Shown piece after piece: positions 3,965-51,956 of a stretch of 64,000 nucleotides of DNA. Under the pieces are notes generated by a model that worked only from the letters and a program-made list of their open reading frames with translations, searched no databases and was not told where the DNA came from. The DNA comes from Bryum argenteum. Lineage: Eukaryota > Streptophyta > Bryopsida > Bryales > Bryaceae. The DNA lies in the NCBI GenBank assembly GCA_037043015.1, contig CM073325.1:11263001-11327000 (forward strand), read 5' to 3'. The position numbers and the translations under genes are program-made. Within the stretch, counting starts at the first letter, position 1, and each line of letters starts with the position of its first letter.

Positions 3965-4044
3965 TTAACCCTTAAACTTCAAGCCCCTCTGAAAATACAC
4001 TGGAAACCAAGCCCGAGGGGCATGCTCTGACGTTTAAGGGTTAA
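3965..4044. mobile_element. Ultra-short TTAA-flanked MITE (72 bp body)
   Basis: Flanked by TTAA on both sides (3965-3968 and 4041-4044). The body begins CCCTTAAACTTC and ends GACGTTTAAGGG, an inverted pair. Further in, GCCCCTC and GAGGGGC form a second inverted match. Its right arm resembles the termini of the 361-bp element at 10947 and the 331-bp element at 45334, so it looks like an extreme deletion product of the same family. No coding capacity. Confidence 0.7.
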
Positions 4045-5376
4045 GTGTCTCAAGGGAAATACCTTATTTTCACTCTATAATTGTACAATTATAATTCAAT
4101 TTGGTGAATGGAATATATTATGTTTGAGAATTATTCAAAAAACACTTTGAGATATGTGCACTTAATTTTAGGTTAATAATGGGTTTGAATTTCTTTTAGT
4201 CCATAGGAGAGTAAGTTTTGTATGAAAATAGTTCATAGATCTCATTATGATGATCGATGTTGGGGGAGAATATATATAGATTGGTGTTCCTAAAAAACTC
4301 ATCCAGATATAAAATTCTCTTAGTGGGTTTGACTAACTTTGAAGTTCACAATCTTTTAGAGATAAAGTGATTCTACAAACTAATCATGAACAATTTAGAG
4401 TGCGCCCATTTTCTCTCCTAGTACAACTATTTGTGTATAACAAACTATAATCTTTGGACTATCAATTAGCAATCATGTTTGCATCAATTAGATTTTTATT
4501 TTCATAACTCAATTTTTATGGTTCAAATATCATGTGTGCATTCTCAATCAAAATACTAGATGTACTATGACATAACCAACATAAGGGTTTGAATATTTTC
4601 CACAAGACATCATGCCAAAGTTGAATGAATTTCACTAAGAAGTTGTGTCATGGTTAATTTATTAGACTTTAGCAGTTTTCCACTAGATGCACAATCAAAA
4701 TTTTCTTTTGGTTTGATGATATTATTATTAATATCAAAGATGTAGATACATGAAAGGCTAATTTGGAAATACTGCTAAGAAAAAGGCCAACCAATAAAAG
4801 CCTTTTTAATCACTTACAAGCCTGTAAAAATTTTAAAGTTTAGTAAATAAATTTAAGATTTTAAACTTTCAAAGGTGAGATCTTGACGATAGCTTACTTA
4901 TTTATGTAAATGAGTAATTTGTTTACCAAGAATGAATGTAATTCATAAGATATAAGGTTCAACCATTCGAATATGTATGTTGACCACATAGGCAATGTAG
5001 GTTTTCAAATTCCAATGCCTAAAATAAGTGCCTTAAGGATGTTTGGAATAATTGAGCCTAACTCATGAATAGAAGAGATTGATGTAAGGTGGACACTAAT
5101 TCCATCTCTCATATCTTATATGTCCCATCTTTGGTAAGAATTTGTCTCATACATGTGGTTTTGGTATCCCAGTAGAAAGTGAGGAGAAATTGTCTCATAC
5201 AACTTGTCCCATTGGAAAGGTCGTATTGGTTTGTGTTAGTCATTGTGAATGACTTCTATTAGATGGTGTTTTTTATTTAGCATTATTGGCTTCCAACAAC
5301 CCAAATTGGAACACAAATTTTCATATGTATTACACGATTGAAATTGAAACGTGAATACTGCATATACGTAATTACC
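4045..5376. other. Intergenic spacer
   Basis: AT-rich and featureless to inspection. No gene supported. Confidence 0.5.
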
Positions 5377-5686
5377 TATCGTACCACCATATCAAATTCG
5401 TTCATAAATAATTATATTTTTGAAAAACCGAAAAAATTCAAATATCTTAAGCCAAGAGGAACGAAAAGTTGATATATCATATTATGAAAAGGATATCCAA
5501 AAGTTGGGAAACTATATCCAAAAACTCCTTTAGTGTGACAAAAGGGTATCCAAAAGTTGGAAAATTATATCCAAAAAAACAAAAGAACGATGTTTAAAAG
5601 AATCTATTTCCAATAGACGAACCTTATTTTTCAAAATAAATAAATATTCGTTCGTTGAGGACCAAACCTGCTATGGTGGTACAGTA
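5377..5686. mobile_element. TA-flanked MITE, CGTACCACCATA family, copy 1
   Basis: Body of about 306 bp between TA dinucleotides. The left end reads TCGTACCACCAT and the right end reads ATGGTGGTACAG, its inverted counterpart. The same ends and much of the interior recur in the element at 44866-45146. A TA duplication and short matching ends are typical of Tc1/mariner-type MITEs. Internal direct repeats around GGATATCCAAAAGTTGG occur twice. Non-coding. Confidence 0.75.
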
Positions 5687-7450
5687 TACCACACAATTTT
5701 CTAGTGAATGAAAAATGGTTAAAGGAGAGAGAATGAACAGATTACATCATACATGAAACTCATAACGAACGCACAAAACAATTCAGAACTAAAGACTTAC
5801 ACTAAAATCAAGCAAATTTCTCAAAAACATCTCATAAATGTAATTTCCACCTCTTCAAAATCAACCTTCTTCTACAATCCCTCATTCTAAATGTCCTAGA
5901 TCACCGGTGCCTCTACAGGCCCCCACCCTACGATAAGAACATTCTCTTGAACCAAAATTCTAAAAACATCAGTTTTCCCTCAATTCAATTATAAAATGAA
6001 TACACTTTTAGAACCTCGAATGTGATGCGCACCCCACCGACGCTCCTTCAGAGCAACCTCGGAAAGGGGGGGCCGGGGGGTTCTACCGGCACTTGCTTTT
6101 GCTATGGAGCGACAAGCATACCGGTATTAGGGTGAGGGTCTAGAGCAGAATGTGGGTATTAGTTTTTTCCATTTTTAGCCATAAACCCCAATTGCCCCCA
6201 AATCAGCAAAATGGGAAAATATGATTTTAAAAGGGCCAGGGCAACAACCCTAATTTAATGCATGCAGCTGAGCGTATGATGACTGGCAGTGAAGGGGGCG
6301 GGCCAGGTACATTGGTGGCTCCATGCTCCTGGTCCACAGGCTTGACCCGGTTCATTGCACTTGGCCTGACCGGTCAGCCCGGTCACTTGGAAGAGGGCTG
6401 GATTGGCGTCCAGGGGGGATGCACCTGATGATTTGAATTCCACCCCCTTTTCCGATGCATGAGATTATGCAGTGGAGTGTGCCATCATCAGATTTTGTGA
6501 GGCTATGGTATGTGTGTTCCTTCGCTTGGTCACGGTTTTTTCTATGGACTCCCCGCGTGGAGAATGTAGTTGTGATCGTTATCGTATCGTTGAATGCGAC
6601 CGTTGCACGTTTCGAACGTTATGCATGTTGTCTTTTTGGTTGTTATGTCTACCATATTTGAATGAGGATCGTAATTGATATGGATCATGAAGATTATAAT
6701 AAACCTATGATCTAATTTGTTTTGCCCAATAAGTAACATGAACAATCAAACCTACAAATAACATAAGAAACTAACCATAATGGGTACCTTTAAAAGGTTT
6801 TATATTAAGTCATGATACGTTTAATGATTTATAGTCACAATAACTAAGTCAAGAGATATGTTTGTTTAAAATACCACGTGCTGATAGAATTCCTTGTCCT
6901 ATAAAATACCAAAATAACTTATGAGAGGAAATAGTTTTTTCTCGATGGCCCCAACGACACCAAGAGTCCACGATTACCCAAATGGCCAAACGCTCCCCCT
7001 TCGAATTTTAAAGCACAACAAAATTCCCCGACCAAGGAAATATTTTCAAGAACAAGAAGGAACACATTTGCAAAAGTGCCTCCACCGAAAAGGGACTCCA
7101 CAAAACGAGGAAGACAACATAATGGCCAAACAGATCTAGCAAACAGGCAACCGGAAAGCGGAAGGAAAGTATTGCCTCGGGGGACCCCGAGCCTAAGGAC
7201 CGTCAATATCTTCCCAACAATCAGGGACCCAGCCTTGGTCCAGCCTCGGATTCATCCACCCAGGCTCGGCACCAACACTTTCTCATCCACTTTCATCCGC
7301 TCCATCCCTGGGTACTCGGCCAGTGGCCATCTCTCCATCGTGGTTCCCGAGGGCAGGCACTACACCACCACCCCTGCTTGCAACTCGTTTTTGCTCCTCT
7401 CTCGCTTGCGATCACAACCCACATGAGATTCGTCTACACACGGACGGACC
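5687..7450. other. Intergenic spacer with GC-rich patches
   Basis: Two GC-rich patches, about 6020-6470 and 6930-7450, sit in otherwise AT-rich sequence. Short frames are open in several phases, but I recognise no protein. The second patch has repeated CCTCGGG/GGCTCGG words and may be the remains of an element or distal promoter sequence of the gene at 8120. Confidence 0.4.
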
Positions 7451-10942: not shown

Positions 10943-11311
10943 TTAACCCTTAAAGGCGCATGTCAGCCCCTCGGGCTGTTTTCCAACAGAATCTTGCCTG
11001 TAGCTCTTTTGATTCTCAAATTTTCACTTACTTTTTTATATCATTCTGGTCAACTTTTTGTGATGCATCTACAAAGTGAAATCCTACAATTCAAATCGCA
11101 ATTTGTATGAGTGATTTGTGCTTTGAAAGGATTGTAGTAAGTAGGTTGAGATTGCACAAAACCTTGTAGGAGGTTGCAAACTCATCATTGATTGGTTCAT
11201 TCATGCTGCCCAAGTTCAAAAAGTGCACTATTCATGTTGCCCAAGTCCAAAAGGTGTTGAGATCCAATTTCGGGCTGCCCATTGAGGAGTGGAAGGACCT
11301 TTAAGGGTTAA
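10943..11311. mobile_element. TTAA-flanked MITE (361 bp body)
   Basis: TTAA at 10943-10946 and 11308-11311. The body starts CCCTTAAAGGCGC and ends GACCTTTAAGGG. The interior is closely related over its whole length to the element at 45334-45664, sharing for example CTTTGAAAGGATTGTAG and CCTTGTAGGAGGTTGC. It has one internal duplication of a TGCCCAAGT segment. Non-coding, so any transposase must act from elsewhere. Confidence 0.8.
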
Positions 11312-12495: not shown

Positions 12496-12828
12496 AAGTA
12501 GAGATTACCAACCTATTTAGAGGCCATGGTGAATAGATTGTTTGTTCAACGTATTCTTGGATATGTGCTCGAAGGCTATCACACAAACCCCTATCAGGGT
12601 GAATACTATGCTAGTTCCTACCTAGCCACTAGTGCCTTAGAGATACCCAACATGGTATCCCCCGAAGGGCTTTGAGGTACCCATACAACGAGGTTGAAGA
12701 ACCCCACTCCATAGTTGGGTGGACTAAGGTGGTGAGCACCACGGTGACATAAGGAGTAGAAACCACAACCTCCTCATTGGGGGCCATGAGTCCTGATCAC
12801 CAAGTCAAGGCTTGTAGTGCTTGCATAG
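12496..12828 (-). mobile_element. tRNA-derived SINE copy A, near full length
   Basis: Read on the minus strand it runs from a tRNA-like head near 12828 (GCCTTGACTTGGTGAT box A region, then CCCAATGAGGAGG) through CCACCCAACTATGG, GGTACCTCAAAGCCC and CTAGGTAGGAACTAGC to the 3' end CTAAATAGGTTGG near 12500. It matches the complete copy at 27123 throughout. A second, oppositely oriented 3' portion abuts its head. Confidence 0.8.
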
Positions 12829-13216: not shown

Positions 13217-13494
13217 TAGAAGAAGAGAAACTCCGACCTATTTAGAGGCTAGCGTGAGTAGAGTGTTCATGTGACCTATCCTTGGTGTATGCCCAAAGGT
13301 CATCACACCAATGGGGGACTACTAACCCCTCTCGGGATGAACACTACGCTAGTTTCTATTGAGTCACTAGTGCTTGAGAGATACCCAACATGGTATCCCT
13401 CAAAGGGCTTTGAGGTACCCAAAGAACAAGGTTCAAGAACCCCCCACCATAGTTGTGTGGACTATGGTGGTGAACACCGCTCCAGCATGGCGAG
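13217..13494 (-). mobile_element. SINE copy B, 5'-truncated
   Basis: Minus-strand copy whose 3' end is GGAGTTTCTCTTCTTC (13217 onward). It extends back through GGTACCTCAAAGCCC and the CCACACAACTATGG block to the region just downstream of the tRNA-like head, which is missing. Short TTC repeats form its tail. Confidence 0.8.
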
Positions 13495-14040: not shown

Positions 14041-14825
14041 AAAAAATAAAAATCCACGTAGCTATGTTGGAAGCCATGAGCCTCTAACATTGACTTGGCC
14101 TCCACAAAGGGAATCATAAGAACCATGCAATGTCATAACAAGTGGAACCAGCCAATAAGGACACTTGAAAGAGTCTCTTATACTTACCATTAAAAAATGA
14201 ATAATCTTTTCTCCTCATGCTAAATCATATGCTTGCATGCAACTACTCCACGTGTACCATTTGCAACATCATTGTTCAGATTTTTCTGCATGAAAATGTG
14301 TCATGATATTGTACTATGATCATTCATTTTACTATTCAAATTTGAATTTGAAGTAACAGCACCTATAACCGATCAGTCAAGAGTTGTATTTTTTGGGAAT
14401 TGAACCTTAATCAATAAATAACATTTTAGATGAAGGGTAAAAATCTTTGAAGAGTTATTACTTCTTTATTACGGACTCTGTTTTTGTCGGGATCACTTGG
14501 GTTGTGTCCCAAATCAAGTCTAGGTTGTGTGATCAAAATTGGAGACCCATGTAATGAAGTATGAATTAATAATTTATTTTTTAGTGATGGCAGATTTTTT
14601 ATGGGGATTCCAAACATGGGGCATGTTTTATCATTGCAAAACATGAAAACTAGTTTTAACTTCACATGTGACGTCAAAACTAGTTTTTCATGTTTTTTTA
14701 TTTTTTGTTTTCTATTCTTTTAAACATAAGTATGAACTTTAGATGCATCCTTACAACTTTCCTTCTACAACTCTTTTAATCCAAATAAATTTGGTATTGG
14801 AGTATATGATGTTTTGATAATGAGA

Positions 14826-15405
14826 AAAGTGAAAAAATGAATGATTCTTGAGGAGCTCTATCTCCTACATCCACCCTTAGATCTTGACTTTAATTTTTTT
14901 GGTATGGACTCCAATCATAATCTAGTTTTACTAGTAGAAACGTTAAGCTAATCGAAGATGTATTGAAAATAGGGCATGGATTTGAATGCAAAGGGTCTAG
15001 TTTTGGAGTGTTTTCCCTTTGTAAATTTCAGGGTAGTTTTCACGATTGCAAGGCAACTATTTGAGCCAAGATATTCTTTTGATGAATTATTTTGCTACTA
15101 ACGTGTTTTTGAGATGAAGATGCACAACTTTCAAGTTTGGGATTTTTTGGTTGCTATTTTTATGTTGGTAGCATTATCAATTCAAAGTGAAAATGATGGA
15201 ATTATGTAGCATGTTTTGCACACTAATATGTTACAATTATGCAATCTATGAGGTCTCATAAGTCAAGTTTTGGGCTACATGACCTACAACAAGTCTATCA
15301 CAAGTTTGTACGGTTGAGATCTAAATTGCTTAAATTCTTTGTCATCTTTGACACTTTTACTGAAAACTTTTGGTTAAAAGTACCCCAAGGACATATAGGG
15401 GTTAG
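14826..15405 (+). repeat. Anonymous dispersed repeat, copy 1
   Basis: Aligns by eye with 44447-45333 over its whole length, for example AATCTAGTTTTACTAGTAG, CGAAGATGTATTGAAAATAG, ATTGCAAGGCAACTATTTG and TGCAATCTATGAGGTCTCA. It ends with ATATAGGGGTTAG, close to the CCCCTAAA-type termini. Fainter relatives lie near 15845-16030, 16190-16340 and 23640-23830. This copy lacks the TA-flanked MITE present in the other one (empty site at about 15224-15225). Confidence 0.7.
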
Positions 15406-16362
15406 AATGATTCAAATTATGTTATATGAACCATTTGGCAAGGTCCTGAGATTTCAAGAAAACCTAACATGTACTTCAAATTGTTATATTGGACGTGTTC
15501 ATAAACTCAATTGGAGGAAATTTTATGGTTTTGGATGCATCCTAGTAGAGAGAATAGTAATTGCGCCCTCGGATTTCTAAACTCTCCAAGTAGTGATGAA
15601 GCTATGGCATTTACCATATCACAAAACCCCTAGGGGTACCTCGGATCCTACCAATAGGTTTATAAGTTTCATATTTTGTGTAAACATCAATTGTATAAAC
15701 ATAAAAGTGAAATGCGTGAGTATAGCACATCCCAATATTATATACAATTCTAATTAGTATAATCTAGAATATGTGTAATCATCTACAAGCAAACGTGCCA
15801 TTATTCTAAAAATCCCTTCACCCCTAAACGATCACAATGTTGTACTTTGATGTTTTCTATGAAGGTTCAAAATTTGAAGAATGATTTGATGGCTCTTAAC
15901 CTAATGAAGTCTAGTTTTCAAGGTAATTATTTCATTCATGCATATAAGTCCAAAGAGCTATTTTTTAGAGTGTTTACACATGTGACATGTTTTGCCATTG
16001 TAAGCCAATTATTTTGGAATACATTCCCTTTTTAATTTTTCTTTGAAAATGAAAGAGTGATAATAGGATTAATTTGAACAATTTTTCCGTTGGAAGTTTT
16101 TTGACTGAAATAATTTTGGTATAAAATTTTCCAATGGTATTTCTATATTAGGAAAATTGTAAAAATACATGGACCTTGACGAGTGGTATCTCATTCCAAC
16201 ACCAATGGGTTTCACCATTATCTGTGGGTTTGATTTTAATTCTAATCTAATCCTTAAATTTTGGACTATTTTTCCTTTGTAAATTGGGAAACTTTCACTA
16301 TTGCAAGGCTCTTATTTGAGACAACATACTTCTTCTAGTGATATTTTTTTTGTTCAAAAGTG

Positions 16363-17380
16363 CTAATCCTTAAATGATCATGGTGTTTTGGGAGCTCCAA
16401 ACTCCAAAATTGCGATTTTACACCACCTTGTAAACTTTGGGGTATGAGAAACTTTTTTGCACTTTTTAAAACTTTCAAATGTACATCTTGAAGAGAACGA
16501 CCATCAAAGGCAGTGGCTAAAATTTCAGATATTGGATCTTTGTCATTTGTAAGATCATAACATTCAAAGTTGATACAAACTTTTTTTTAGCAAACATAGT
16601 TTACTTTGTGCAAAGGAGATCTTGATGATTAGTACCTCAAACATTCTGCTCATATTCTTTCCCATGTAGATAATCTAATTAAGCATGCGAAAGTCTAGAC
16701 ATTCATTTTGCTTCTTGAACTTTTCATTCAAAATATCTCTATAGCTTTACTTCACCAAGTGTATTGCCATATACGAAAATAATAGTGCTCTAACAAATCA
16801 CGTTCTGCAAATGATAAATTGTGAATGGAGATTGGCTTAATGGGAGGGAAAAAAACCATTTTTTGTGAAAGTATGGGCACTCATAAGCACTTCCTAAAAC
16901 ATCAACGTCTTACTTATGGTGCATGTTCACCTCCAAAGTCTTGTTTTTGGTCAACCATAAATTGTGGTCTTAAGACACTCTTGGTTTACAAATTTATAAG
17001 GAATCAATTGGTGAGAAATAAAATTGAGGAAATGCAATCAACGTGCACCTTACATAAACCTTTATTATTCATTAGTTGGAATTAGTTATTTTTTACTATC
17101 ATATTATAAGGAACTTATCTTGTGTCTTAAATCTCTAAAAATTTTGTCAGCTCGCTCTATACAAGAGCCAATTTTTTTGTAGGCAACCCTTATAATTTTG
17201 CAAATTGAAACCAATTTTTCAATTGCAACAAATTAACTACACAATCATGATATTTGACTTGAGGACCTTGCACCTCCAAGTTTGATATATTAGCTTCTTT
17301 ACCAATCCTCTTAATTTTTAACAACCACAACTCAAGAGATTTTTTAATGAGTCAAAAGGTCCTGGGCATTTAAGGGTTGG
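16363..17380. mobile_element. Possible long, decayed CCCTTAAA-type element
   Basis: The left edge reads CTAATCCTTAAATGATCATGG and the right edge reads GGGCATTTAAGGGTTGG. The interior near 16400-16720 resembles 42680-43070 (TTTGTCATTTGTAAGATC..AACATTCAAAG). The ends are degraded and the flanking four bases do not match, so the boundaries are tentative. Confidence 0.35.
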
Positions 17381-21217: not shown

Positions 21218-21550
21218 CCATGTAAGCGTAAGCTAAATAAATCCCAACAATCTTTCTTCAGTTATTCCCCCAAAAATCATCTGTCTTCAAATCTAGACAT
21301 GTAGTAACATCAACACCCTCCCAACCGAGTTAAATATTTGCCACTCCATAGTCCCCGAATCCGCTGTAAATGATCCAAGGACTTTCTTTTTTTTCTGGCC
21401 TACAATCCTGTACACAAATCCCTGTCCCCAAACCACCGTAACCAAAATTGTTGGTTGCTGCAACAAAAGCTGAGAACTCCATCATCGCGAGCGCGACGAA
21501 AGCTAAGAAATCTCGAACTCCATGTCGCAGTGCCGGGCCCGGTAAAGCGT

Positions 21551-21736
21551 TCAGCACATCATGCGGCTGCCGAAGAAGGCGAGTACCATGGCCACCGCTG
21601 GGCCTACCACGGACGGCACCAACGAGAAGCCGGCGCTGGTTGGCGGGGGTGCAGGTGCCAACGCCTGCGCGTTGGCCATGACGGCCATGCTTGAAACGAC
21701 TGCCAACACCACCACGGCGCTCCTCATTGACGCCAT
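21551..21736 (-). CDS. Arabinogalactan peptide, copy 1 (61 aa)
   Basis: Encodes a tiny secreted proteoglycan backbone expected to be O-glycosylated on hydroxyproline and GPI-anchored at the outer face of the plasma membrane. Residues 1-23 are a signal peptide (cleavage ANA|Q). The mature core is only QALAPAPPPTSAG, with Ala-Pro motifs that become arabinogalactan sites. Residues from about 37 form a hydrophobic C-terminal GPI signal ending LAFFGSRMMC, with S34 to G36 the likely anchor site. This matches the AG-peptide plan of Arabidopsis AGP16/20/22/41 in size and order, although the C-terminal signal differs. I chose the ATG at 21736 rather than the upstream in-frame ATG at 21844 because it gives a proper signal peptide and matches the paralogue. 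An acceptor-like TTTGGTGCAG just upstream suggests a 5'UTR intron. Confidence 0.85.
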   Translation of the reverse strand: MASMRSAVVVLAVVSSMAVMANAQALAPAPPPTSAGFSLVPSVVGPAVAMVLAFFGSRMMC

Positions 21737-26583: not shown

Positions 26584-26880
26584 ACACGTCATAGAATGTT
26601 CGTTTGACCTGTCCTTGGATGCATGGTGGAGATCATAACACTAATGGCGTGACTACTACCTTCTCTCGGAGTAGACACTTTGCTAATTCCTACCTAGCAA
26701 CAAATACCTTAGAGACACCCAATGTAGAATCACCCCAAAAGGCTTTGAGGTACCCATACAACAAGGCTGAAAAACCTCCCACTGTAGTTGGGTAAACTAC
26801 GATTATGAGCACAATAATAGAACCTACAACCTTCCCATTGGGAGCCATGTGCTCTAACTACCAAGCTAAGGCTTGTGGCG
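26584..26880 (-). mobile_element. SINE copy C with tRNA-like head
   Basis: On the minus strand the head at 26880-26815 reads CCTTAGCTTGGTAGTTAGAG (box A-like), then CCCAATGGGAAGG and GTAGGTTCTATT (box B-like). Body blocks CCCAACTACAG, GGTACCTCAAAGCC and GCTAGGTAGGAATTAGC follow. The 3' end near 26584 is eroded. Confidence 0.75.
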
Positions 26881-26881
26881 C

Positions 26882-27109: not shown

Positions 27110-27498
27110 TAAGCATAGGCTAGGCACCACAAGCCTTGGCTTGGTGGTTAGGGCTTAGGCCCCCAATGAGGAGGTCGTGGGTTCTATCCCCCATGCCGGC
27201 GTGGTGCTCACCACTATAGTCCACCCAACTATTGTGGGGGTTCTTTAAACCTTGTTGTATGGGTACCTCAAAGTCCTTTGGGGGGATACTATGTCAAGTA
27301 TCTTCAAGGCATTAGTAACTAGGCTAGAAACTAGCGTAGTTACAGTGTCCACCCTCGAGAGGGGAAGTAGTATTGTTCCAATTTCCCCTTGCCCGGTGGC
27401 CATCGGGATATTAGCATTACGAACGGACACTTCATTCACGCCGGCCTCTTAGAAAGGGACCGGAGTTTCTATCTATCTATCTATCTAAGCATAGGCTA
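27110..27498 (+). mobile_element. Complete tRNA-derived SINE (copy D) with target duplication
   Basis: Body 27123-27485 (363 bp) lies between two copies of TAAGCATAGGCTA (27110-27122 and 27486-27498). The head has a box A-like TGGCTTGGTGGTTAGGG (27137-27153) and a box B-like GGGTTCTATCC (27179-27189), at the spacing of an internal RNA polymerase III promoter. The body carries CCACCCAACTATTG, GGTACCTCAAAGTCC and GAACGGACACTTCATTCACG. It ends GGAGTTTCTATC with a TATC-repeat tail. This is the reference copy for all other SINE calls here. It does not encode protein and would depend on a LINE for mobility. Confidence 0.9.
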
Positions 27499-29044: not shown

Positions 29045-29298
29045 TTGACCCTTAAAGATCTTTGATGCAAAATTTTCTCATTTATGAAGAATGACCCTCT
29101 TCTACTTGAACACCAATTTAGTTTAATATAAGTATCATTGAGAAGATTTAGTTGTAGGATGTGAAATTCGATTTAACATATTACTTGTATGCCAAATTTG
29201 AACTGTTGATTCTTCTTCATTTGTAAGATTACAATGAATTTTGTTCGTGCGGGAACCCCCAAAACCCATTTCAGATTTTAAAAATTTTGAGGGGTTGA
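29045..29298. mobile_element. TTGA-flanked member of the CCC(C/T)TAAA MITE family (246 bp)
   Basis: The left edge reads TTGA then CCCTTAAAGATC. The right edge reads ATTTTGAGGGG then TTGA. The four flanking bases are the same direct word on both sides, not an inverted pair. This shows they are a target duplication and not part of the terminal inverted repeat. Confidence 0.6.
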
Positions 29299-31579: not shown

Positions 31580-31893
31580 CCACAAGCTTTAATAAATCCC
31601 AACAATCTTTCTTTCCTGAAAATTATTCCCCAAAAATCTTCTGCTGTTGCCAGTATCTACGGATTACCAAACACCCCGCCCCACGTTTTAGAGATTATTG
31701 ACCCTAGAATCCGCTGTTTACGCTTCATCGTCCAGGGTCCCCAGCCATGGTCAAATCGGCACTAATACCACCAATCCTTGCCCTGCACAACCTATACCTT
31801 TTCCTTTCTTCTATACGCAAAATTGCTGGTGGTTCTTGTTCGTCTTCTTGGAGAAGACAGAGATTCAATCATCATGTTTGATGATGATGATGT

Positions 31894-32088
31894 TCAGCAC
31901 ATCATGCGGCTGCCGAAGAAGGCGAGTACCATGGCCACGGCTGGGCCTACCACGGACGGCACCAACGAGAAGCCGGCGCTGGTTGGCGGGGGTGCTGGTG
32001 CCACCGCCTGCGCGTTGGCCATGACGGCCATGCTTGAAACTACGGCCATCACCACCACGGCGGACCTCATCACGCTGCTGGATGCCAT
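31894..32088 (-). CDS. Arabinogalactan peptide, copy 2 (64 aa)
   Basis: Paralogue of the gene at 21551-21736. The last 50 codons are about 95% identical in DNA and the C-terminal 32 residues are identical in protein. Residues 1-26 form a signal peptide (cleavage ANA|Q). The mature core QAVAPAPPPTSAG is followed by the hydrophobic GPI-anchor signal ending LAFFGSRMMC. The N-terminus is three residues longer (MASSSVMRS versus MASMRS). TTTTTCAG about 30 bases before the ATG and a donor-like CATTCCG|GTACGT near 32750 suggest a 5'UTR intron of roughly 620 bp, longer than in copy 1. The role is inferred from the AG-peptide family: a short cell-surface proteoglycan. Same orientation as copy 1, so this is a dispersed tandem duplication. 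Confidence 0.85.
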   Translation of the reverse strand: MASSSVMRSAVVVMAVVSSMAVMANAQAVAPAPPPTSAGFSLVPSVVGPAVAMVLAFFGSRMMC

Positions 32089-33643: not shown

Positions 33644-33876
33644 TTAACCCTTAAAAGTCCCTTGGGGATAGTATGTACGCTGTCGTATAATTAGGATTTG
33701 CTACCAACAAAAAACTCTAAACTGGAATCGTAATAACTCACTAGAACAACATTAATTCAAATGTCAACTTCTTCTTTGAACTCAAACCCATTAAAGGTGT
33801 GCATTCACTCCAAATACAACCAAAATACATTGTATTCTATTGGTCGCCATGGCACGCTCAGACATTTAGGGGTTAA
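33644..33876. mobile_element. TTAA-flanked MITE (225 bp body)
   Basis: TTAA at 33644-33647 and 33873-33876. The body starts CCCTTAAAAGTCC and ends GACATTTAGGGG. Non-coding. The middle does not obviously match other members. Confidence 0.75.
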
Positions 33877-35774: not shown

Positions 35775-36496
35775 TTAACTCCTAAAGGCCCACAAAAGCC
35801 AAAATGGCTTTTAGTAATTTTGGGTAGCCTAGATAAAGGGGTTAAAAGTAATATTTTTGCCTAAACTTTTTAGTAAGTGTTCCCAATACTGCAAAGTATA
35901 TGTTATAAAATTTGCAAAACCCAGTTACTATTTTGAAACATTCCTTTAGAAATTCAAGTCAAATCTGGCAATTTAAATTAAGAAAAAAGAAGGAAAAAAA
36001 TTCATTGCCAAATAATTATTCAAGTTTTAAGGTGACATAATTCGAAAAGTTTAGTAATTTCACAAGGGCGGCCTCCAAAAATTACAAAAACCATATTCAC
36101 AATTTCTAGTAATTTCCAAAAAAATTCTTACAAAATACTGTCAAAATTCCAGATTTCAAAGTTTTTTCAAATCTTTTTTCTCAAAATTCACAAACTTGTA
36201 AATGTACCTAATCACCGTTCGAATGTACAATTGAACTAAAATATGTAATGAATGCATGTTTTCTTATATCATTGTTTTGGGACCTTCTTCTAGGAAGTAA
36301 TTTGCATGAAGGTAAAAAAAAAGCAAAATGCGTCCAGAAAATTGTGTCTTAGTGCAAGAAGTAAGGTTCAAGATCTTAAAATTAAAGATACAAAAGATGT
36401 AGAGTAAAGTGAATCATGCCTCAACTTATACAATTGGTCAAAAATTAGAGTTTTTGGTTTTTGAGGTCCAAAAACGCATGGGTTTTCAAGGGTTAA
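35775..36496. mobile_element. Long TTAA-flanked element (714 bp body), inverted relative of 42680
   Basis: TTAA at both edges. Left end CTCCTAAAGGCCC, right end CATGGGTTTTCAAGGG. Its left-to-right order matches the right-to-left order of the 933-bp element at 42680-43612, sharing blocks such as AAGGGCGGCCTCCAAAA (versus AAGGGCAGCCTCCAAAA). No protein recognised. Confidence 0.65.
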
Positions 36497-38500: not shown

Positions 38501-39118
38501 AACACCCTGGTTGCATGCCATTTCTTTATTAAGTCATAAATAATACATCTCACCAATTAGAATATATATTTATATATTTCTAAGTGTCCCAAGAATCCGC
38601 TTTTTTAATATTCCAAGGTGTTGGCTGCATGGGTCATGCCCTCCTCTTCATAGCTGGCCACCCACAATATGAGGTGTCACCCCCAATTTTCTTGATTTTT
38701 TAGCAAACACCTCTTTGGAATATCATTAGCAACAATAATCATAGTGGTTGTTTTTTAAAATCATAATGGTGCCCCTCCATCATCATCATCATCAACTAAA
38801 GAAGTTTGTTAGAGGGCGTCAATAAACGTGATTGATTGAGTGACAAACTCTATTGGCACATGCACATAATTGAGAGTTTTCTTGGTTTCTTCTTGTTCTT
38901 GTAATAAGAAGGTAAATATCTATTTTTGATTTTTTGGAGTAAATCGATATATTTATTGATTGCGAGAAACAAAATAATGAACCTAAGTAGCATATCATAG
39001 TTTTTGAGTTTTTAAGAGGTTTTAATAAAAATTCTCTTGCAAACTACGTAAAAGTAGAAAGAAGGTATAATAATTGCCACGTAGGAATCCATACTTGCTT
39101 TGAGATTTTTTTCTTTGG
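38501..39118. other. Intergenic spacer
   Basis: AT-rich. A short CAT/ATC repeat lies near 38778-38795. No gene supported. Confidence 0.45.
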
Positions 39119-39378
39119 TAATAAGCGTCATAGTCCACCCAACTATGGTGGGGGGTTCTTGGACCTTGTTGTATTGGTACCTCAAAAGCCCTATGGGGAA
39201 TACCATGTCGGGTATCTCTAAGGCACTAGTGGCTAGGTAGGAACTAGCATAGTGTTCATGATTAGTAGTCCTGCAATTAGTGTGATGACCTCAACAATAG
39301 GTCGAACAAACACTCTATTCACGCCTGCCTCTAAATAGGTTGGAGTTTCTCTTCTTCTTCTATTTTAATAAGCATCAT
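39119..39378 (+). mobile_element. SINE copy E, 5'-truncated with target duplication
   Basis: Body 39132-39365 starts inside the SINE at AGTCCACCCAACTATGG and ends GGAGTTTCTCTTCTTCTTC. It is flanked by TAATAAGCGTCAT (39119-39131) and TAATAAGCATCAT (39366-39378), 12 of 13 identical. The tRNA-like head is absent, so it inserted in truncated form. Confidence 0.85.
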
Positions 39379-41094
39379 TTCTTCTTCTACAAATACATAT
39401 ATCAACGACACATCAAAAATTTCAAATATATCCCTAGAGGTTATTGAGTTATTGAGTTTTAATTATACGTGATAAGAGATGATGCACTAACAATGGTGGA
39501 CTAGGCTATCAAGTCGGTTTCAAGGTTGGTGCAATAATGCGAGCACGCCCGTCCCCCCTTCGCAACGTTTATTTTCCAGCTGCAAAGTTGTGTATCATAT
39601 AGATGTGCCTTGTACTCTTTTTGGCATAAGACCATGGCGCATGACAAGAAAAAAGCATGATGAGACCACTCTATCCTTTAGCATAAAAAAAACTAAAAAA
39701 TTAAAACAACACCCCATCCCCGTGCATTATTATTTCTTCCCTTTGGAAAAAGCCAAAAGCCCGAGGATGACCGCTACAGTAAAATTGATTTTTTATTTTT
39801 GATTTTTCGTCTGGAAAGGAGGGCGCATGCGTTTGCAGCTGCCTCTCCACGAACTCCGAGACAACCAAATCATTGGTTTTTAAATATTCCCTACGTTGAA
39901 AGTTTGGTCTATTGTTGGCTATGGCATGGTCAGAATATGTCAAAAAAAATTGGTGACATGGAAAAATAGAGGTAGCTTGAAAATATGGGAGCGTGCACAC
40001 CGAAAAACAAATGAATGATTGAAGTCATTGTTCAAGTACCGTTCTTATTGGTTGCTTGAGTGCTCGTGGGGACTCTACATGCGAGAAAGTTGAAAATTTG
40101 AGGAGGGTGAACGATGCCCCTCATTTGTTGTGTAGCCGCCCTTGAAATTGCATGTATGGAGTATCTTTGTGACATAAAATAGGATCATGAGCTTCATGTT
40201 TCAATTCAAGGTATTTAAAACTAACAATGAGTGTTTCAAAATGGTGAATAACACAATTATTCCATGTTCCTCCATGAAATTGCTAGAATTTTGTTGAAAT
40301 GGGTTTTTAAAAGTAAGGTAGAAGCACCTATTATGAACCATTTGAGTTAACCATGTGATTAGGGCCCCGTGGTTTTTCATGTGATTAGGGTAAATTTTCA
40401 TTGGCGATGAGTTTTATTACGTCTACTCCATGAATCTTGGAGTCTTGTAAACATAGTTGATAATTAATTTGTTTAAAATAGAAGTTATAGCAATTCTAAG
40501 TCAATTAGTAGGTTCACCCTTTAAAGGTCTAAGCGTGCTACAGAGGCCAATGTATCATGTTTTTTTGCATGTCTTCCGGTATGTACCTTGGAGCTCTAGT
40601 CTAAAAGGAAGTTTGTATTCAAACAAATGGCTTTCTATTGATACATTGCTCGCACCATTTTTTGACATACCTTGTGCTCTGCTAGGATTTTAGTATGAAT
40701 TAAATGAAAATACGTTAGAGAAGCCAAACCCTAATTGCAATCAATTGGCTGAGAGACTTGCTCCGCATTTTTTTCGAGTACATACACATCATGAATACAC
40801 TTCTGAGCACCGTTCAGATTGAGTCGTGGTGTCACCGGTGATTTTTTTTTAGAATGTCAAGAGTATGGAGTGAATGTAAACGCACTATCTTGTGGTTTCT
40901 TTTCATGCAATCTCACTAAAACCCTTGGATTGATCACCCTGCATATAATTCTATAGACATAGTGCACATTAATTTTCACATCCAAACGATCAAATTTCCA
41001 AACATACCTCTAAATATCCTGCTAAATTTGAAGTGCAAAACGTATTGCCCACTCCGTGGTCACTAATCTACACCTCCCGTGAGACCTTCAAGGG
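39379..41094. other. Intergenic spacer
   Basis: AT-rich with scattered short frames (39701-40000 minus, 40457-40693 plus) that are unrecognised. A solo CCCTTGAAGG-type end abuts TTAA at 41095. Confidence 0.45.
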
Positions 41095-41096
41095 TT

Positions 41097-41210
41097 AACA
41101 CAAAATTCTATCTTTAACACAAAATTCCATTTTTAACACAAAATTCCACTTTCAACACAAAATTTCATCTTTGACACCAAATTCAATCTTTAACACCAAA
41201 TTCCATCTTT
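41097..41210 (+). repeat. 19-bp minisatellite, six units
   Basis: Six consecutive 19-bp units of the form AACACAAAATTCCATCTTT with no length variation and one to three changes per unit. It starts within the TTAA that ends a CCCTTGAA-type terminus. Confidence 0.9.
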
Positions 41211-41439
41211 AGTGTATTGTTCTGTAACTATAACACTTTGTATAAAAGTCTTTAGAGTAGATTGTCTGTAATGAAGAAGAACGCCCAATGAAATCATGTC
41301 TCTACTTACATTATCATCGATAGTTGTAATTGTTATTTATTGTCAGACTTTCTATTAGGGGGGTTTTACTATGGTGAAGAAGGCCTTCAGTCGTCCAAGA
41401 ATGCTTGGCCGCGACATGATTATATGAGGTAAATGATAA

Positions 41440-42675: not shown

Positions 42676-43616
42676 TTAACCCCTAAAAATCCAGGCGTTT
42701 TCTCGACCTCCCGAACCAAAAACTGCCATTTTTCACCTTCGTTGGGAAATGGGGAAATGGAGAAACTTTTTTTTTCTGGTTTTAGACTTTGAACCGTAAG
42801 ATCTTGTACCTAACTTGTATACAAAGGACTGGTCAAAATTTCAACCGTTGGATGTTTGTCATTTGTAAGATCGTAACAATCAAAGTTTGTCCAACACTTT
42901 TTTTTGCCGCTGCGTGAGAGGCATTGTCTAAATGGTGCCAAGGGCAACTTGATGATTATTACTCCAGATATTTTTCCCTCATTTTTTTTCATGTAGGTAA
43001 TCAAGTTGGGTATGCTCATGCAAAAGTTTAGAGACCAATTCCACTTTTTGACCTTAATGTAAGATATTTTATGAAAGAAGGTCTAAAAACAACCATATTG
43101 TAAAACAAGCACCACATATGATATATTTAGTTTGAGAAAAATTTGGACGGTGAGAAGGTGCATTTATGATAATGTAAATTTCAAAAAAAAGAAAAAAGAA
43201 ATGGAAAATATCCAATATCTCGAATTTTGACAATTTTTGAAAGAAAAAACTGTAAAATTATTAGAAATTGTGAAGATTGTTTTTAAAGTTTTGGAGGCTG
43301 CCCTTGTAAAATTGGTAAACTTTTTGACTTCGGATACTTTGGAATTTGAACTCTAATTTGGTAATGAACATATTTCTAAAAAAAATAAAAATTAAACAAA
43401 ATTATTTTAAGCTGCCCGTTTTGGACTTGAAACCTAAAATTTCTAGATGAAGGTTATAAAATTAAAATTTGGCTTTACAAATTTTACCACATACACATTA
43501 CACTATGGGGAGCATCCAGTAAAAATCTTAGGCAATAATATCAATTTAATTCCTTAAAATGAGCTGCCCGAAATCTCAGAAAACCGAATCGGTTTTCCTA
43601 GATTTTTAGGGGTTAA
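42676..43616. mobile_element. Long TTAA-flanked element (933 bp body)
   Basis: TTAA at 42676-42679 and 43613-43616. The left end is CCCCTAAAAATCCAGG and the right end is CCTAGATTTTTAGGGG. AACCGAATCGGTT near the right end is itself palindromic. Inverted relative of 35779-36492, and part resembles 16400-16720. It contains no recognisable transposase. Confidence 0.8.
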
Positions 43617-43748: not shown

Positions 43749-43984
43749 TTAACCCCTAAAATTTCTTGTGTTTTTTGGGGTTCGAATTTGAAAAACTGCG
43801 ATTTTCAACCACTATGCACTCCCGGGGATATGACCTAAATTTATTTGGTTTTTTATCACATGTTCATTATCGATATATCTATCTTTTGTAAAAAATTAGC
43901 AAAAAATATTAATTTTTACTACTCACTTTCACTGCCCAAAAGAGCCAAAACCCATTTCGGGTCTTAAGGAAAGTTAGGGGTTAA
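43749..43984. mobile_element. TTAA-flanked MITE (228 bp body)
   Basis: TTAA at both edges. Body starts CCCCTAAAATTTC and ends GAAAGTTAGGGG. The next member of the family is only about 130 bp to the left. Confidence 0.75.
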
Positions 43985-44446: not shown

Positions 44447-45333
44447 TGCCTCAGAATGGATGATTTTTGAGGCCCTATATCTCCTTCATCCACCGTTGGA
44501 TTTTGACTATATTTTTTGGGATGGGATTCAATTAGAGTCTAGTTTTAGTGGTAAAAACCTTGACAAAATCGAAGATATTTTGAAGATAAGGCATGAATTT
44601 GAGTGGAAAGGGTTGATTTTTGGACTATTTTTTATTGTCAGTTTTTGGGCAGTTTTCATCATTGCAAGACCATTTTTTGCGGTTTTTTTTTTTTTTTTTT
44701 TCTTTTTCTTTTTCTGTTTCTCATGGCTTTTTGTTGTCAAAAGTGTTGTTGAGATGAAATTAAACATCTTTGTAGTTGGTGACTTTTTCATTGCAATAAG
44801 CCTATTGATAGCATTTTCACTTCAAAATTAAATGTTGAGATTTTGTGATGTCTTTTGAGTACTTACCGTACCACCATAGCAGGTTCGGTCTTCAATGAAG
44901 GTTTATTTATTTTTTTGAAAAAATAAGGTTTGTTTGCCAGAATTAGATTTTCTTGAAATTGGTTCATTGTTTTTAATATAATTTCCCAACTTTTAGATAC
45001 CCTTTTGTCACAATAAAGCTGCTTTTGGATATCCTTATCAAGAATATAATTTCCCAACTTTTCGTTCCTCTTGACTTGTAATTTCTATTTTTTTACGTTT
45101 CTTAAAAATAGAATTATTTAAAAACAAACCTGCTATGGTTGTACAGTAATGTGTTACGATCTTGCAATCTATGAGGCCTCATGACTCAAAATTTAAGTTA
45201 CATCATATGCAATATGTTTACTACAAGATTGTATGGTTGAGATCTAGATAACTTGCCTCAACTTACATTCATGACACTTTTCTTGAGAATCTGTTCTTTC
45301 CTCTACCAGTGAGTCAAACCATTTAGGGGTTAA
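44447..45333 (+). repeat. Anonymous dispersed repeat, copy 2, interrupted by a MITE
   Basis: Aligns with 14826-15405: AGTCTAGTTTTAGTGGTA, CGAAGATATTTTGAAGATA, TTGCAAGACCATTTT. Then, after a TA-flanked insertion, it continues with TGCAATCTATGAGGCCTCA. It ends ATTTAGGGG at the TTAA shared with the next element. Confidence 0.7.
44864..45148. mobile_element. TA-flanked MITE, CGTACCACCATA family, copy 2 (281 bp), nested
   Basis: TA at both edges. Left end CCGTACCACCATAGCAGG, right end CCTGCTATGGTTGTACAG. It sits inside the anonymous repeat, whose other copy (about 15224) has a single TA and no insert, so both the boundaries and the 2-bp target duplication are supported. Confidence 0.9.
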
Positions 45334-45668
45334 CCCTTAAACGCCTAAGGTGACCCGAGGGGTCATATTCCAACAGAATCTCCTCAGTAGCTCTCAATGT
45401 ACTCAACTTTTCACTTATACTTTGATGTCAAACTGGTCACTTTCTTCTGATGCATTCAAAAAGTGGAATTTTAGAATTCAAATCACAATTTGTATGAGTG
45501 ATTTTGTGCTTTGAAAGGATTGTGGTAGGTAGGTTGGGGTTGTACACAACCTTGTAGGAGGTTGCAAGCTCATCATTGATTGGATCATTCATGATGCCCA
45601 AGTTCAAAAGATGTTGTGATTCAATTTTTGGCTGCCCGTTTCAGGCACCTTTGGCATTTAAGGGTTAA
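45330..45668. mobile_element. TTAA-flanked MITE (331 bp body)
   Basis: TTAA at 45330-45333 and 45665-45668. Body starts CCCTTAAACGCCTAAGG and ends CTTTGGCATTTAAGGG. Close relative of the 361-bp element at 10947. The left TTAA is also the right edge of the preceding repeat (ATTTAGGGG), giving two ends back to back. Confidence 0.85.
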
Positions 45669-47369: not shown

Positions 47370-50300
47370 TCACATGGACACTTGGGCACCCGACGGATAT
47401 TTCGCTGCTGCAGGAAGGGTGCCGAATACCCGGTCCCAAATCGAGGAGGTCACGCCAAAGCTGCAGTTCTGCATCCCTTTTTTGAAATGATGATTGGAAT
47501 GCTCCTTCTGCCAATGCCCCCCATCAAACAAAAATACATTCAAATATTCATTTTTGAAAACTCCTAAAAGCCGAAGGAGTTTGGAGAATAACTTAGATGT
47601 GATATAAAGTATACATTCTATAAGTCTTATGAAGTTCTGCTCAAAAGACAACATGGAGATCAGGGTGCTTAATTTAGGTGAATACACTTAAAATTCTCAA
47701 TGCTAATTTTACAATGAATTAAAGAGAGTAAAACTTTGAAAATCAATAGAAAATACACTTTTATTATTAGTAGTTGGAAATTGATATGGTTAGCTAAATT
47801 AACATAGTATTTGATAATATAGAGAAAGGCCATATTATGGGAAACACTATTAGTTTCCCAAAATAGTAAGTTTTCCAACACTAAGGGAACCTTGTCATGT
47901 TTGTGTTTGAAGGCTTATTGTGAACAACTTATGATTCCAAACAAGGTTTTGTAAATTGGATGTGGCTCTCAACTCAACCAAACTTTTAGAAAGTAGAAAA
48001 ACAAAATTTAAAAAAATTAAAAAAAAAAAAATCTCTTTTTACTCTGCTACATCTTCTCAAAATTCGGAATCGACCATAAAATGGTTGATTGGGCTTTCAT
48101 GGTCTAATTGATTGACTAGTGTTCAATTATTTAAGGAGAAAAGAGGAAAATGGCGGACGCAAAATGAGAGAACGATGAGGATCTATATTAAAAGAAATTG
48201 AGCTTAAACTTGTCCCAGTTCAAATCACTTTACACTACAAGAGTGACCAAGCCACTCAAACATGGTCAATTTTCAATTTTCAATTTATCATGGTCAGTAA
48301 GAGCCATGATCATGAAAACGATCTTAATTTTCTTGGTCATGGCTCTTGATTCACAGTGTAAAGGGACTCTAAATCTCTCAATGTGATGTCTTTTCAATCC
48401 ACTTTGAATTGTACAGAATTCTAGGAAATGAAAGCACTTTCTACACTATTTGCATTCTACTTTATATTGTCATTTTTCATAGTTCTCATTGAGTTCTATA
48501 ACGTTACTTCATATTCGATACAAATGAGTAAGCTATCCTTGACCAAAGAATGTATGGATTGTCTCAAAATAGTGGTTAAGATCATGACAAAAAACTGTAA
48601 TAGATATGTAAAATGTATCAAATATGACCATTAAATGATCATTCAAGGCTCAAGACCCATATACTTCAGACTAGTTGTCCAGCAAGCTTGAAAAAACGAT
48701 AATAAATTGTTCCGAGAGAGTGAGCGAGCATGCTAACCTTCATTCTGTAGAGATGATCTGAGAATGGTGTTCCGAAGTGAAGAAAATAGTGAGTGAGGTC
48801 GTAGACGATGTATCCCAGCAATGCCCCGCCGAAGAACGCAGGTTTCCATTGTGGCGTGAGAGCCAAGTCCATCATCTTCCATATCTGCACACATCATCAC
48901 CACAATCTTTCGGGTATAAAGGAGAGTGCTCAAGTCTGGAGCGGTACCAATAATGAAGCACTAGACTTCTTCAGTCAGAGATACCCAGTAGCTTCTTCTC
49001 TCGACAGTAGCATGTACTCACGATGCGTATTGTAGGGTGCAAAATTAGGGCACCATTTTAGAAATACCCAGAAGACTGCCTTCACAAATTCATAGCACAT
49101 TGTAGAAGAGTATGAAATTCATGGATCTACTTTGACTATCCTTCTATTTATTTTCCTCATGCACAATAAATTACTTACTTCACTAAATATCAGGAAATTT
49201 GAAATTTGAGCCATTATTAAGTACTATCCCTTACCCCATTTTAGCATACTTAAAACAGACTTCACTTCCTTGCCTTGCCAAGAAAATTCTCACTTGTAGG
49301 CTTCATTTGTATCTCTACATAACAACTCAAGTGTTGATTTAATAGAAGTGACTATTCTGATCATTGCAGTTGACAGCATTATGGTGTTGACCCCTAAAGT
49401 CGTAATAGACCACAATGTGGTTGATTGGCTTCAAAAAGTAATGTTGTTTTTGTAAAAATTGAAACTTTAACACGATAAAAGTCAAGATCCTTATGGTGAA
49501 ATTTGATGAAAATTGGTGAGACAACCAATTTGACAGTTATAAACAAGATCTTATGGTTGGATCTCCTACAATCAAAGTAAAAAAATAAAATAAAATTGAT
49601 CTCGGATTTCAGACATGGCCATCTTGGAGGTTACTATAGAACTTCTCTTTCAAGGATTAACAATTTTTGCATTCATTTGTAAATTATTGAACCTCTCTAA
49701 CAACCACAAGGCGCGGATATCATGCAAATTTGACCATGATTTGGCCTCATGGTTGTTAAAGGGTTAATGATATCCAAAATAAGGAAGAAAATAATTAAAA
49801 GACTCAAGTCAATATTGTCCCTGGTTTTTGTGCACTATGATCACTATCTATATGTAAGAGAGTAGGGATTACTTCACTCTTGACAGAGGCTAGACTCCAT
49901 GTAGTTTCTATATAGTAATTTGTCATCCATGCCAACACTATATTTGTTCAAAAGTACCTAAGTTAAGTTTATTTTTATTATACTTTCTTCAATCATAACC
50001 AAACAATGTATCAATCGTTTGAGGGATACCTCAAGAATCAAGGGAGCTAGTTTGAGATCTAGAGAAGAAGCTTCGATACAACCACATCACTAACAAAATT
50101 GTCAAAACAAAATGGTGATGGACCACGGACTATAAATTTTAGGAAATACGGAAGTGTTACACTCTGCACCAACAAGAAATTATACAAGAACCTTAAATTG
50201 AATACTTAAAAGCAAACGTTATTACCGTAAGATTTTTCGATCAAAACACTTACACCAATACAAATGAGTGCCGTGTACGGAGGGGGAAACACAAGCCGAT

Positions 50301-51956
50301 CCCCGTCCATGGGATGCTTGTGGTGAAATCCATGGATGATATAATGAAAATGGATTGTCCTGCCATATTCCATCCATACCATTAGCACACCATCAAATCT
50401 TATAAGAACAATGCATGAGTATCATAACGAAATTTTTCAATTGGTTCGTTGAACTTTAAATTTTTCAACAATTTAAGGTGCGTTGGAGTGATACTTTACA
50501 TGGGAGAGGAGGCTTTCATGTGGAACACGAAGCGGTGAAGAATATACTCCAAGAACGTCCAAAAAAAGAGGCCCAAGATGAACACGACGGGCAAAATGGT
50601 CGCGGACAAGCCCCTCTTGAGAGCATTGAGTTCACACCATACCACGACGGGCCCCCATATCATGGGTATCATCCACCATTTGCACCTCGTCATAAACTGA
50701 AACATAGCACTCCACAACAACACACTCACTCAAAATAGAAGGAAAAAAATAAAATAAAAAATGTTTGCCATAACCAACTAATTCGTATATTGCAACTAAA
50801 AACATAGTTGTAAGCCGATTGCTAAAAGGTCTCATTTTCTTCTAGTGACGTGAACAAAAGAGCTTGTTTGAGAGAGCAAGTATAACATGAGCATCGACTC
50901 AACCTCAAGGAGATTGTTGTCGAAGAGCCTTGGACTCTCCTTCCGCTTTACGGGGTCGTGAACCCAATCATCGTAATCCAAACCCAGATGGCTAACCTAG
51001 AAGTTATACACTCACAACATATCCATAAGGAACCATCCAATTTTCAAGAGGTTGTCATTAATTCAAACTGCTGAAACCAACAAATAAATATATGTTGTAA
51101 AGGATGCATTAGAGGTTACCACCTATGTTAACCCCTAAACGACCACGGCCACCGATTCGGCTTTTACAGTCAAGGCCAAAACAAATGTATAGTCAACTTC
51201 AAATGTTATGATCTCACATCTAGTGATGATCCAACGGTTGAAAATTTTCACACTACTACCAATGGTAGTCTACTTCAAAATCCTACGGTTGAAATTATCA
51301 AAAATTTCCAAAAATATTGGAGGTACCCCCATTAGTACATAGTGGTCAGTGTTGGGATTTCAAGCTCCCAAAACATCGTGGATCTTTAGGGGTTAATTTG
51401 TGTTGTTTTTTGAGAATATAGGTTGCATATCATTAGTGAATGTACTTGAGCTCATGAATATCCTTGCACATCATAAGGTTGAGAATATTTAACCCTTATA
51501 GATCCAAGAAAGTCAAAATAGCTTATTGGGTTCTCTTAGGAGCAAACGTCAGCCAACTATGACCATTACGATTTCACAAATGTCAAAGAATCAACATCTC
51601 AAATTTGGCATGCTAGATAAAAAGTCAAGTCGATCTCAAAATCCTACGATTCGATCTTCCAAATAATTCTTCGATTGAGTTTTTGTAGCTTGAAGTAGAA
51701 GAAGGTCATTTTCTGTAATTTTCGCAAATTTTGCATTAAGAATTTTGTCTCCTTCCATGAAGGAATTGAGATTCTACATTCAGCATCACATTAGGAAGAG
51801 CGACACATTTTCCAGTAGTAAAACCCAGAGTTTTGAGAATGCTCATACCTGAGCGACCATGGACTTGCTCATGTCCACGTTCCACTTTCTGGGTTTCCCA
51901 TTCGGTACCACTACTGGTCTCGCAACGGCTCGCTCAGTGCGTCCATTAGAAGCCAT
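47370..51956 (-). CDS. FAH: Fatty acid 2-hydroxylase (cytochrome b5-less plant type), six exons
   Basis: ER membrane di-iron enzyme expected to 2-hydroxylate the N-acyl chain of sphingolipids, receiving electrons from a separate cytochrome b5. Exons on the minus strand: 51956-51849, 50996-50904, 50696-50500, 50359-50254, 48884-48738 and 47507-47370. They join in frame to 262 residues through GT-AG introns. The histidine clusters are intact: H121-x4-H126 (HRFVFH), H138-x3-H142-x2-H145-H146 (HYIIHGFHHKHP), H200-x3-H204 (HYFLH) and H220-x2-H223-H224 (HSNHHF), then FGVTSSIWDRVFGTLP. Hydrophobic segments lie near 75-90, 98-120 and 183-198. There is no b5 domain, as in Arabidopsis FAH1/2 (about 237 aa). 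The N-terminus is about 30 residues longer before MVAQ. Introns 1 and 4 hold TTAA-type MITEs, and the last intron carries another repeat. Confidence 0.93.
47950..48372 (+). repeat. Dispersed repeat ending in a CTTTACAC element, copy 2, in the FAH last intron
   Basis: Second copy of the repeat at 46060. Its terminal part (48225-48369) is a CTTTACAC/GTGTAAAGGG fold-back followed by TAA. It lies within the 1.23-kb last intron of the hydroxylase gene. Confidence 0.6.
49387..49767. mobile_element. CCCCTAAA-type MITE in FAH intron 4 (373 bp)
   Basis: The left edge is TTGA then CCCCTAAAGTCG. The right edge is GTTAAAGGG then TTAA. The ends are slightly decayed, so this is an older insertion. Entirely intronic. 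Confidence 0.6.
51128..51396. mobile_element. TTAA-flanked MITE in FAH intron 1 (261 bp)
   Basis: TTAA at both edges. The body starts CCCCTAAACGACCACGG and ends CGTGGATCTTTAGGGG. A further lone end, TTAACCCTTATAGATCC, lies in the same intron at 51489. Confidence 0.8.

Follow-up and report, generated by a model that had tools for sequence, protein, structure and literature searches.

What are the elements with paired CCCYTAAA-type ends, directly abutting TTAA, that recur along this stretch of the Bryum argenteum genome (the window; 64,000 nucleotides in all), and what moved them? We have found that the paired-end, TTAA-flanked elements of the window are real. Eight were listed in a preliminary description, and each is present as a TTAA-flanked pair: seven of the left ends are exact copies of the tip TTAACCCYTAAA, the left end at 35775 has one mismatch (TTAACTCCTAAA), and every right tip is followed by TTAA (elements ending at 4044, 11311, 33876, 36496, 43616, 43984, 45668 and 51396), with one mismatch each in the right tips at 36496 and 43984. 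The body sizes given for them, 72 and 933 bp at the extremes, are correct (80 and 941 bp minus two TTAA). Three weaker candidates fared less evenly. The one at 29045-29298 stands, with TTGA on both sides; the one at 49387-49767 has TTGA and TTAA flanks and worn tips; and at 16363 the tip is degraded, but the sequence is 79% identical over 235 bp to the start of L025:4295-5609. The proposed density of about one element per 6 kb holds if all eleven are counted (5.8 kb each) but not for the eight alone (8 kb each).

The exact tip occurs 14 times on the two strands of the window, whereas 100 dinucleotide shuffles gave 0.04 on average and never as many as 14; with one mismatch allowed there are 25 tips, against 1.33 expected from the shuffle control. 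Across the genome (258.8 Mb in 25 contigs) the 12-base tip is found exactly 11,520 times in forward and 11,664 times in reverse orientation, giving 23,184 copies or one per 11 kb, approximately 58-fold more than the same pattern reversed (207 + 194 = 401). Table 1 lists the elements together with further, mostly degraded relatives in the window.

Table 1. Elements of the window, autonomous elements elsewhere in the genome and the domain upstream of the transposase domain (L, fetched locus; C, contig).
Feature	Location	Coordinates	Strand	Flanks, tips and relatives
80-bp MITE, including both TTAA	window	3965..4044	.	exact tips; hairpin-capable, fold z -4.33; last 34 bp 88% identical to end of autonomous element L032
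369-bp MITE	window	10943..11311	.	TTAA both sides, exact tips; groups with two L014 copies, 81% identical; no match among four autonomous elements compared
Degraded copy of 980-bp family	window	14411..15404	.	76% identical to positions 34-977 of L020:3115-4092
Degraded copy, first placed at 16363	window	16259..16731	.	related to 1311-bp family and to end of autonomous L033
254-bp MITE	window	29045..29298	.	TTGA both sides, a variant target duplication
233-bp MITE	window	33644..33876	.	TTAA both sides, exact tips; 94% identical to two C1 copies
722-bp MITE	window	35775..36496	.	TTAA both sides; one mismatch per tip; matches near one end of L033 and one end of L029
941-bp MITE	window	42676..43616	.	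exact tips; 92-94% identical to three C1 copies
236-bp MITE	window	43749..43984	.	TTAA both sides; right tip with one mismatch
Right end of degraded 980-type element	window	45144..45333	.	TTAA at 45330-45333 common to next element
339-bp MITE	window	45330..45668	.	TTAA both sides; adjoins another element's end
Copy of 550-bp family	window	47559..48095	.	degraded tips; 75% identical to positions 3-538 of L028:8039-8588
381-bp element	window	49387..49767	.	TTGA left, TTAA right; worn tips
269-bp MITE	window	51128..51396	.	TTAA both sides, exact tips; 91% identical to L013:4203-4470; 68% identical to one end of autonomous L033 over 236 columns
Copy of 268-bp family	window	51489..51746	.	left tip TTAACCCTTATA; 75% identical to positions 1-252 of L009:2754-3021; right tip not recognisable, right flank CCTT
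Autonomous element	L029 (C4)	1298-6998		5.7 kb; TTAA/TTAA
Autonomous element	L030 (C8)	1253-6953		5.7 kb; TTAT/TTAT
Autonomous element	L034 (C9)	1015-6719		5.7 kb
Autonomous element	L035 (C7)	191-5893		5.7 kb
Autonomous element	L033 (C5:11374677-11380518)	478-6319		5842 bp; 47.7 kb beyond window
Autonomous element	L032	2031-6980		4950 bp
Autonomous element	L037	1475-6673		5199 bp
Upstream domain	L031	677-967
Upstream domain	L033	1627-1881
Upstream domain	L029	5579-5836
Upstream domain	L037	5964-6251

We note several other features of the window. A piggyBac-type right end with one mismatch lies at 41087-41211, and its TTAA (41095-41098) doubles as the first one in a 19-bp tandem array (TTAACACAAAATTCCATCT). 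A sorbitol-dehydrogenase-like gene at 57073-59537 consists of two or more exons, separated by a (TA)48 array (58069-58165), and of ten window frames scanned against Pfam only two dehydrogenase frames matched; neither the window nor 14 loci gave an Rfam match at gathering scores. A dispersed repeat occurs in both orientations (12583-12740, 13321-13478, 26663-26812, 27158-27323, 39116-39258 and 57781-57908), and direct copies that are 96% identical lie 10.3 kb apart at 21549-21727 and 31892-32070, the first overlapping a short frame that by eye resembles an arabinogalactan peptide and has no Pfam match.

The elements had been taken for one MITE family, a view that does not survive comparison: 32 elements (22 from C1 and 10 from the window) split into 10 groups by DNA similarity, some of these groups being chains of distant relatives. 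The C1 elements come from 20 stretches chosen around listed tips, which biases this sample towards exact TTAA tips. Apart from one case of 5.9 kb, the compared elements span 80-1315 bp, and their relatives cover approximately 8 kb of the 64-kb window (a hand sum of merged match intervals, two poly-T hits excluded). Pairwise identity inside families ranges from 67% to 98%, and thus older and younger copies both exist. The elements have the properties of MITEs, being short, non-coding and high in copy number with inverted ends, and in 15 of 32 the ends are shared with an autonomous element. Folding gave z below -3 in three of six stretches and not in the other three.

The end consensus, drawn from 62 exact ends, is TTAA CCCYTAAA followed by weaker preferences (G14 58%, T15 61%, C16 79%, C17 68%, G20 71%). 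Beyond the tip, the two ends of the same element resemble each other more than they resemble those of other elements (66% against 44% at positions 13-20, a value reached in none of 2000 permutations), and in 24 of 32 elements at least 12 of the 16 bases next to TTAA are the same at both ends, the other eight having 7-11 such bases. GGCAG stands at position 49 in 12 of the 62 exact ends and may perhaps be a point of transposase contact. piggyBac has been defined by inverted repeats of ~12-19 bp with a CC[C/T]T terminal motif (PMC2872659), and the ends here, CCCYTAAA plus its extension, are inverted in the same way. The preliminary description also remarked that the tips resemble the plant telomere repeat. 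This is probably coincidence, since CCCT is a usual piggyBac tip (PMC12732532) and the lone telomere seen is a TTTAGGG array, and we have rejected a telomeric origin of the tips on these grounds.

If these elements are of piggyBac type, a source of transposase is to be looked for in the same genome. A genome search with the piggyBac transposase domain (PF13843) scored 116 matches among 775 candidates (best E 7.4e-82), and by our own count 93 of the 116 have no internal stop and 23 have one or two; the same domain found no match in any of 14 control genomes. We fetched nine of the 116 loci, all on contigs of 17-44 Mb. An autonomous element such as the preliminary description anticipated, having matching ends and encoding a DDD transposase, was found at seven of these nine, where outward TTAA-type CCCYTAAA-type ends with equal 4-bp flanks delimit elements of 5.0-5.8 kb (Table 1). 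By a hand estimate from tip density, a correctly oriented pair of ends would occur in a random 7-kb locus about once in a hundred. Of the remaining two loci, L031 has an exact right end and a left end with one mismatch (L036:3894), and L038 has no TTAA-CCCYTAAA-type ends in 7 kb. The elements of L029, L030, L034 and L035 are 99.74-99.84% identical over 5.7 kb (five comparisons, all but that of L034 with L035), and they lie on four different contigs with unrelated flanks, which points to recent movement. Between L032 and L037, identity is 97-98% along most of the element. No transposase match was found in the window itself with the nine transposases as queries. A further candidate for an autonomous element, L016:1604-7552, was rejected: its right 675 bp are a 980-family end, and no transposase was recognised by eye in its open frames.

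The 841-aa frame of L033 matches PF13843 at E 4.1e-77 and the solved transposases piggyBat (9c0f) and piggyBac (6x67) at E 2.8e-30 and 2.5e-27, and its blocks TIDEMM, DNYFTS and GVDVADQ align with TIDEQL, DNWFTS and GVDTLDQ of 6x67; we take these three blocks to hold the catalytic aspartates. The nine frames are 28-37% identical from lineage to lineage; L029 and L033 share 61%, and L032 and L037 93%. C-terminal CxxC motifs number two in L031, L032, L033 and L037 and one in L038; the 831-aa frames of L029, L030, L034 and L035 stop before the cysteine-rich tail, perhaps through an intron or a loss. We also note that L038 (C3:13764500-13771500) contains, at 2535-5558, a 1008-aa open frame with PF13843 in which the third block is altered to GVDTAAQ; it may have been domesticated or have decayed.

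Upstream of the DDE domain, three lineages (L029/L030/L034/L035/L033, L031 and L032/L037) share a stretch of ~85-97 residues with a core like FRHHFYRQAAHILGW, and in L031 this domain and the DDE domain lie in one 1331-aa frame. Its likeness between lineages is weak: tblastn against ten loci, a small database, gave E values from 1e-7 to 0.016, and in L038 no match. Three pieces scanned against Pfam gave no match up to E 10, and the best PDB match of the L031 piece, at 0.12, is not convincing. To our knowledge this domain has not been described from animal piggyBac.

The preliminary description proposed a 4-bp target duplication of TTAA type, and the flanks bear this out. Among 39 unique pairs, 32 are TTAA/TTAA, two are identical variants (TTGA and TTAT) and five are unequal, these fractions being biased by the choice of most loci through exact TTAA tips; no 2- or 3-bp signal appeared. 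Four of the five unequal pairs have at least one worn tip, the fifth (L028:1760-2737) having intact tips. The variants deserve particular weight because at a plain TTAA site a 4-bp duplication is indistinguishable from a TA duplication inside TTAA. It is this ambiguity that leaves some room for assigning the elements to Harbinger/Tourist or to Tc1/mariner/Stowaway, with 3-bp or TA duplications respectively, and for regarding the extra bases as part of the element or as target preference. Tourist and Stowaway types are common MITE classes in plants, and the elements described here are like them in being short, abundant, non-coding, bounded by inverted ends and spread through a plant genome; Tourist and Stowaway elements differ in their 3-bp or TA duplication and in their tips. 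The TTGA/TTGA flanks of 29045-29298, taken alone, also fit a 2-bp duplication. PIF/Harbinger elements, however, make a 3-bp TWA duplication, which neither TTAT/TTAT nor TTGA/TTGA flanks display (two cases only). Moreover, L030 is flanked by TTAT at both ends and L029, its sister at 99.8% identity, by TTAA at both ends; such flanks speak for a 4-bp duplication, since a 2-bp duplication would need an extra mutation, and also for recent movement. The transposase-bearing elements with such ends, found in a search with the piggyBac domain, carry PF13843, and we regard a Tourist or Stowaway assignment as very unlikely.

Empty sites, also named in the preliminary description as something to look for, were recovered in part. 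We compared the joined flanks of 32 candidate pairs with the fetched sample (two of the pairs have their right end in common with another pair), and paralogous empty sites were found for two pairs and for none of the others. L021:3124-4056 has two paralogous counterparts without the insertion, 91-92% identical over 304 columns and with a single TTAG. For L019:3918-4181 there is one copy, only 70% identical, with TTAC; it lies inside a 550-bp-family copy, and L019:3918-4181 is therefore a nested insertion. These empty sites are paralogous rather than allelic, and carry TTAG or TTAC rather than TTAA. Two matches at L014 were discarded as artefacts of two similar neighbouring elements sharing one TTAA.

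Are the MITEs in fact relatives of the piggyBac elements whose ends they resemble? At E 1e-4, a match to one of four autonomous elements (L029, L030, L032 and L033) was obtained for 15 of the 32 elements and none for the other 17; the 980-, 233- and 550-bp families have no partner among these four. The clearest case is the element at 42676-43616, the first 373 bp (74% over 379 columns) and last 54 bp (78%) of which are identical to that extent to the two ends of L033, the middle being absent; judged by this alignment it seems to derive from an autonomous piggyBac element by internal deletion. L014:7185-7553 matches 34 bp at the end of L032, as does 3965-4044. Alignments between MITEs and autonomous elements that reach 100 bp are just 68-80% identical, and with 17 of 32 elements unmatched, the exact parents are not found among the four. 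The many families, the unmatched elements and the modest identity of the longer matches are what one might also see if the MITEs were moved by another transposase and had come to share their ends with piggyBac elements by convergence. Nevertheless, the likeness of the 930-bp family to an autonomous element extends ~370-390 bp inward at one tip and 54 bp at the other, which is too long for convergence, and we give this explanation very little credence.

Kolobok also duplicates TTAA and has been reported from green and red algae (PMC9587614), and the Kolobok/T2-MITEs of frogs likewise form large families with a TTAA duplication (PMC6004289, PMC9587614). Their ends, however, start with purines (AGGRR; PMC6004289, PMC9587614), and their transposase belongs to another group; Kolobok ends follow 5'-RR...YY-3' (PMC9587614), whereas those here run CCC...GGG and CCCYTAAA-type ends are carried by seven of nine PF13843 loci, and the chance that these are Kolobok-type MITEs appears to us negligible. 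That the piggyBac genes come from contaminating animal or fungal DNA might be suspected from the description of piggyBac chiefly in animals, fungi and protists (PMC12732532), but is scarcely credible given that the contigs which carry the nine loci measure 17-44 Mb, that one locus is 47.7 kb from the window, that like tips occur throughout the genome, and that the assembly contains a plastid fragment and a contig ending in plant-type telomere repeat.

Six contig ends were fetched. That of C5 is the TTTAGGG telomere array, with 136 units in its final kb; of the others, two read N and three are without telomere repeat. The first 3 kb of C14 (L047), a 12.5-kb contig, are 24% GC and read as plastid ndhD, psaC, ndhE, ndhG, ndhI and ndhA, with ndhI apparently split between two frames. 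Its PsaC differs at 2 of 81 positions from PDB 8htu, presumably a moss structure, and other chains, some of them presumably algal, score almost equally. By these features the host would be judged a land plant, and probably a bryophyte.

Taken together, the PF13843 elements with shared ends, the TTAA-type flanks and the paralogous empty sites support the piggyBac-type interpretation put forward in the preliminary description. We conclude, with a probability of roughly 95%, that the window elements are non-autonomous piggyBac MITEs of several families, with autonomous relatives of 5.0-5.8 kb in the genome. The DDD transposase of an autonomous element would recognise the shared ends (TTAA, CCCYTAAA and further inverted bases), cut the element out and paste it into another TTAA, duplicating the four bases; it would act on the MITEs in trans, excision would presumably be seamless, and movement may still be ongoing. 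We also think it somewhat more likely than not that the genome harbours a diverse piggyBac community, recently and perhaps still active, in which several lineages, with their upstream domain, each feed MITE families of their own and which plays a role like that of Tourist and Stowaway elements in flowering plants.

The elements resemble piggyBac of T. ni and piggyBat of bats in their TTAA duplication, CCC tips, short inverted repeats and PF13843 domain with three aspartate blocks, and L031, L032, L033 and L037 also in their C-terminal CxxC pairs. They differ in their land-plant host, in a long N-terminal region with an unlabelled shared domain, and in their length of 5.0-5.8 kb as against 2074-3465 bp reported in beetles (PMC12732532); lengths of 1.23-9.51 kb have been reported for piggyBac elements (PMC10813416). 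Among the closest known MITEs are the CMITEs of corals, which are piggyBac-related, have TTAA and tips such as CCCTTTAAGCCCTA and share their genome with piggyBac-like transposons; they are ~100 bp long with a conserved core and have, in one coral, 18 to 737 estimated copies per family (PMC2872659), whereas the elements here span 80-1315 bp in many families, with more than 23,000 exact tips. Among the open-access papers listed by our searches, none was found to describe piggyBac elements or piggyBac MITEs from bryophytes or flowering plants, or to report comparable abundance, diversity and apparent recent activity in a land plant; earlier records may well exist in subscription papers and repeat databases. 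In the accessible text of the sources concerned, the superfamily is called occasional in plant genomes, for example in red algae (PMC12732532), plants are named as hosts without detail (PMC10140906, PMC10813416), PiggyBac is listed among plant DNA-transposon superfamilies with no example (PMC10794571), a fern repeat table gives 1,230 PiggyBac copies amounting to 122 kb (PMC6890710), and piggyBac does not occur in a moss paper (PMC7466625).

piggyBac, then, is a known superfamily, and it is the host, scale, diversity, apparent integrity and extra domain that look new. With its many uninterrupted transposase frames and over 20,000 exact MITE-type ends, this land-plant genome offers a conserved protein domain for explanation and a natural system for the study of piggyBac in plants, and it might supply transposases adapted to plants for use in marker-free editing.
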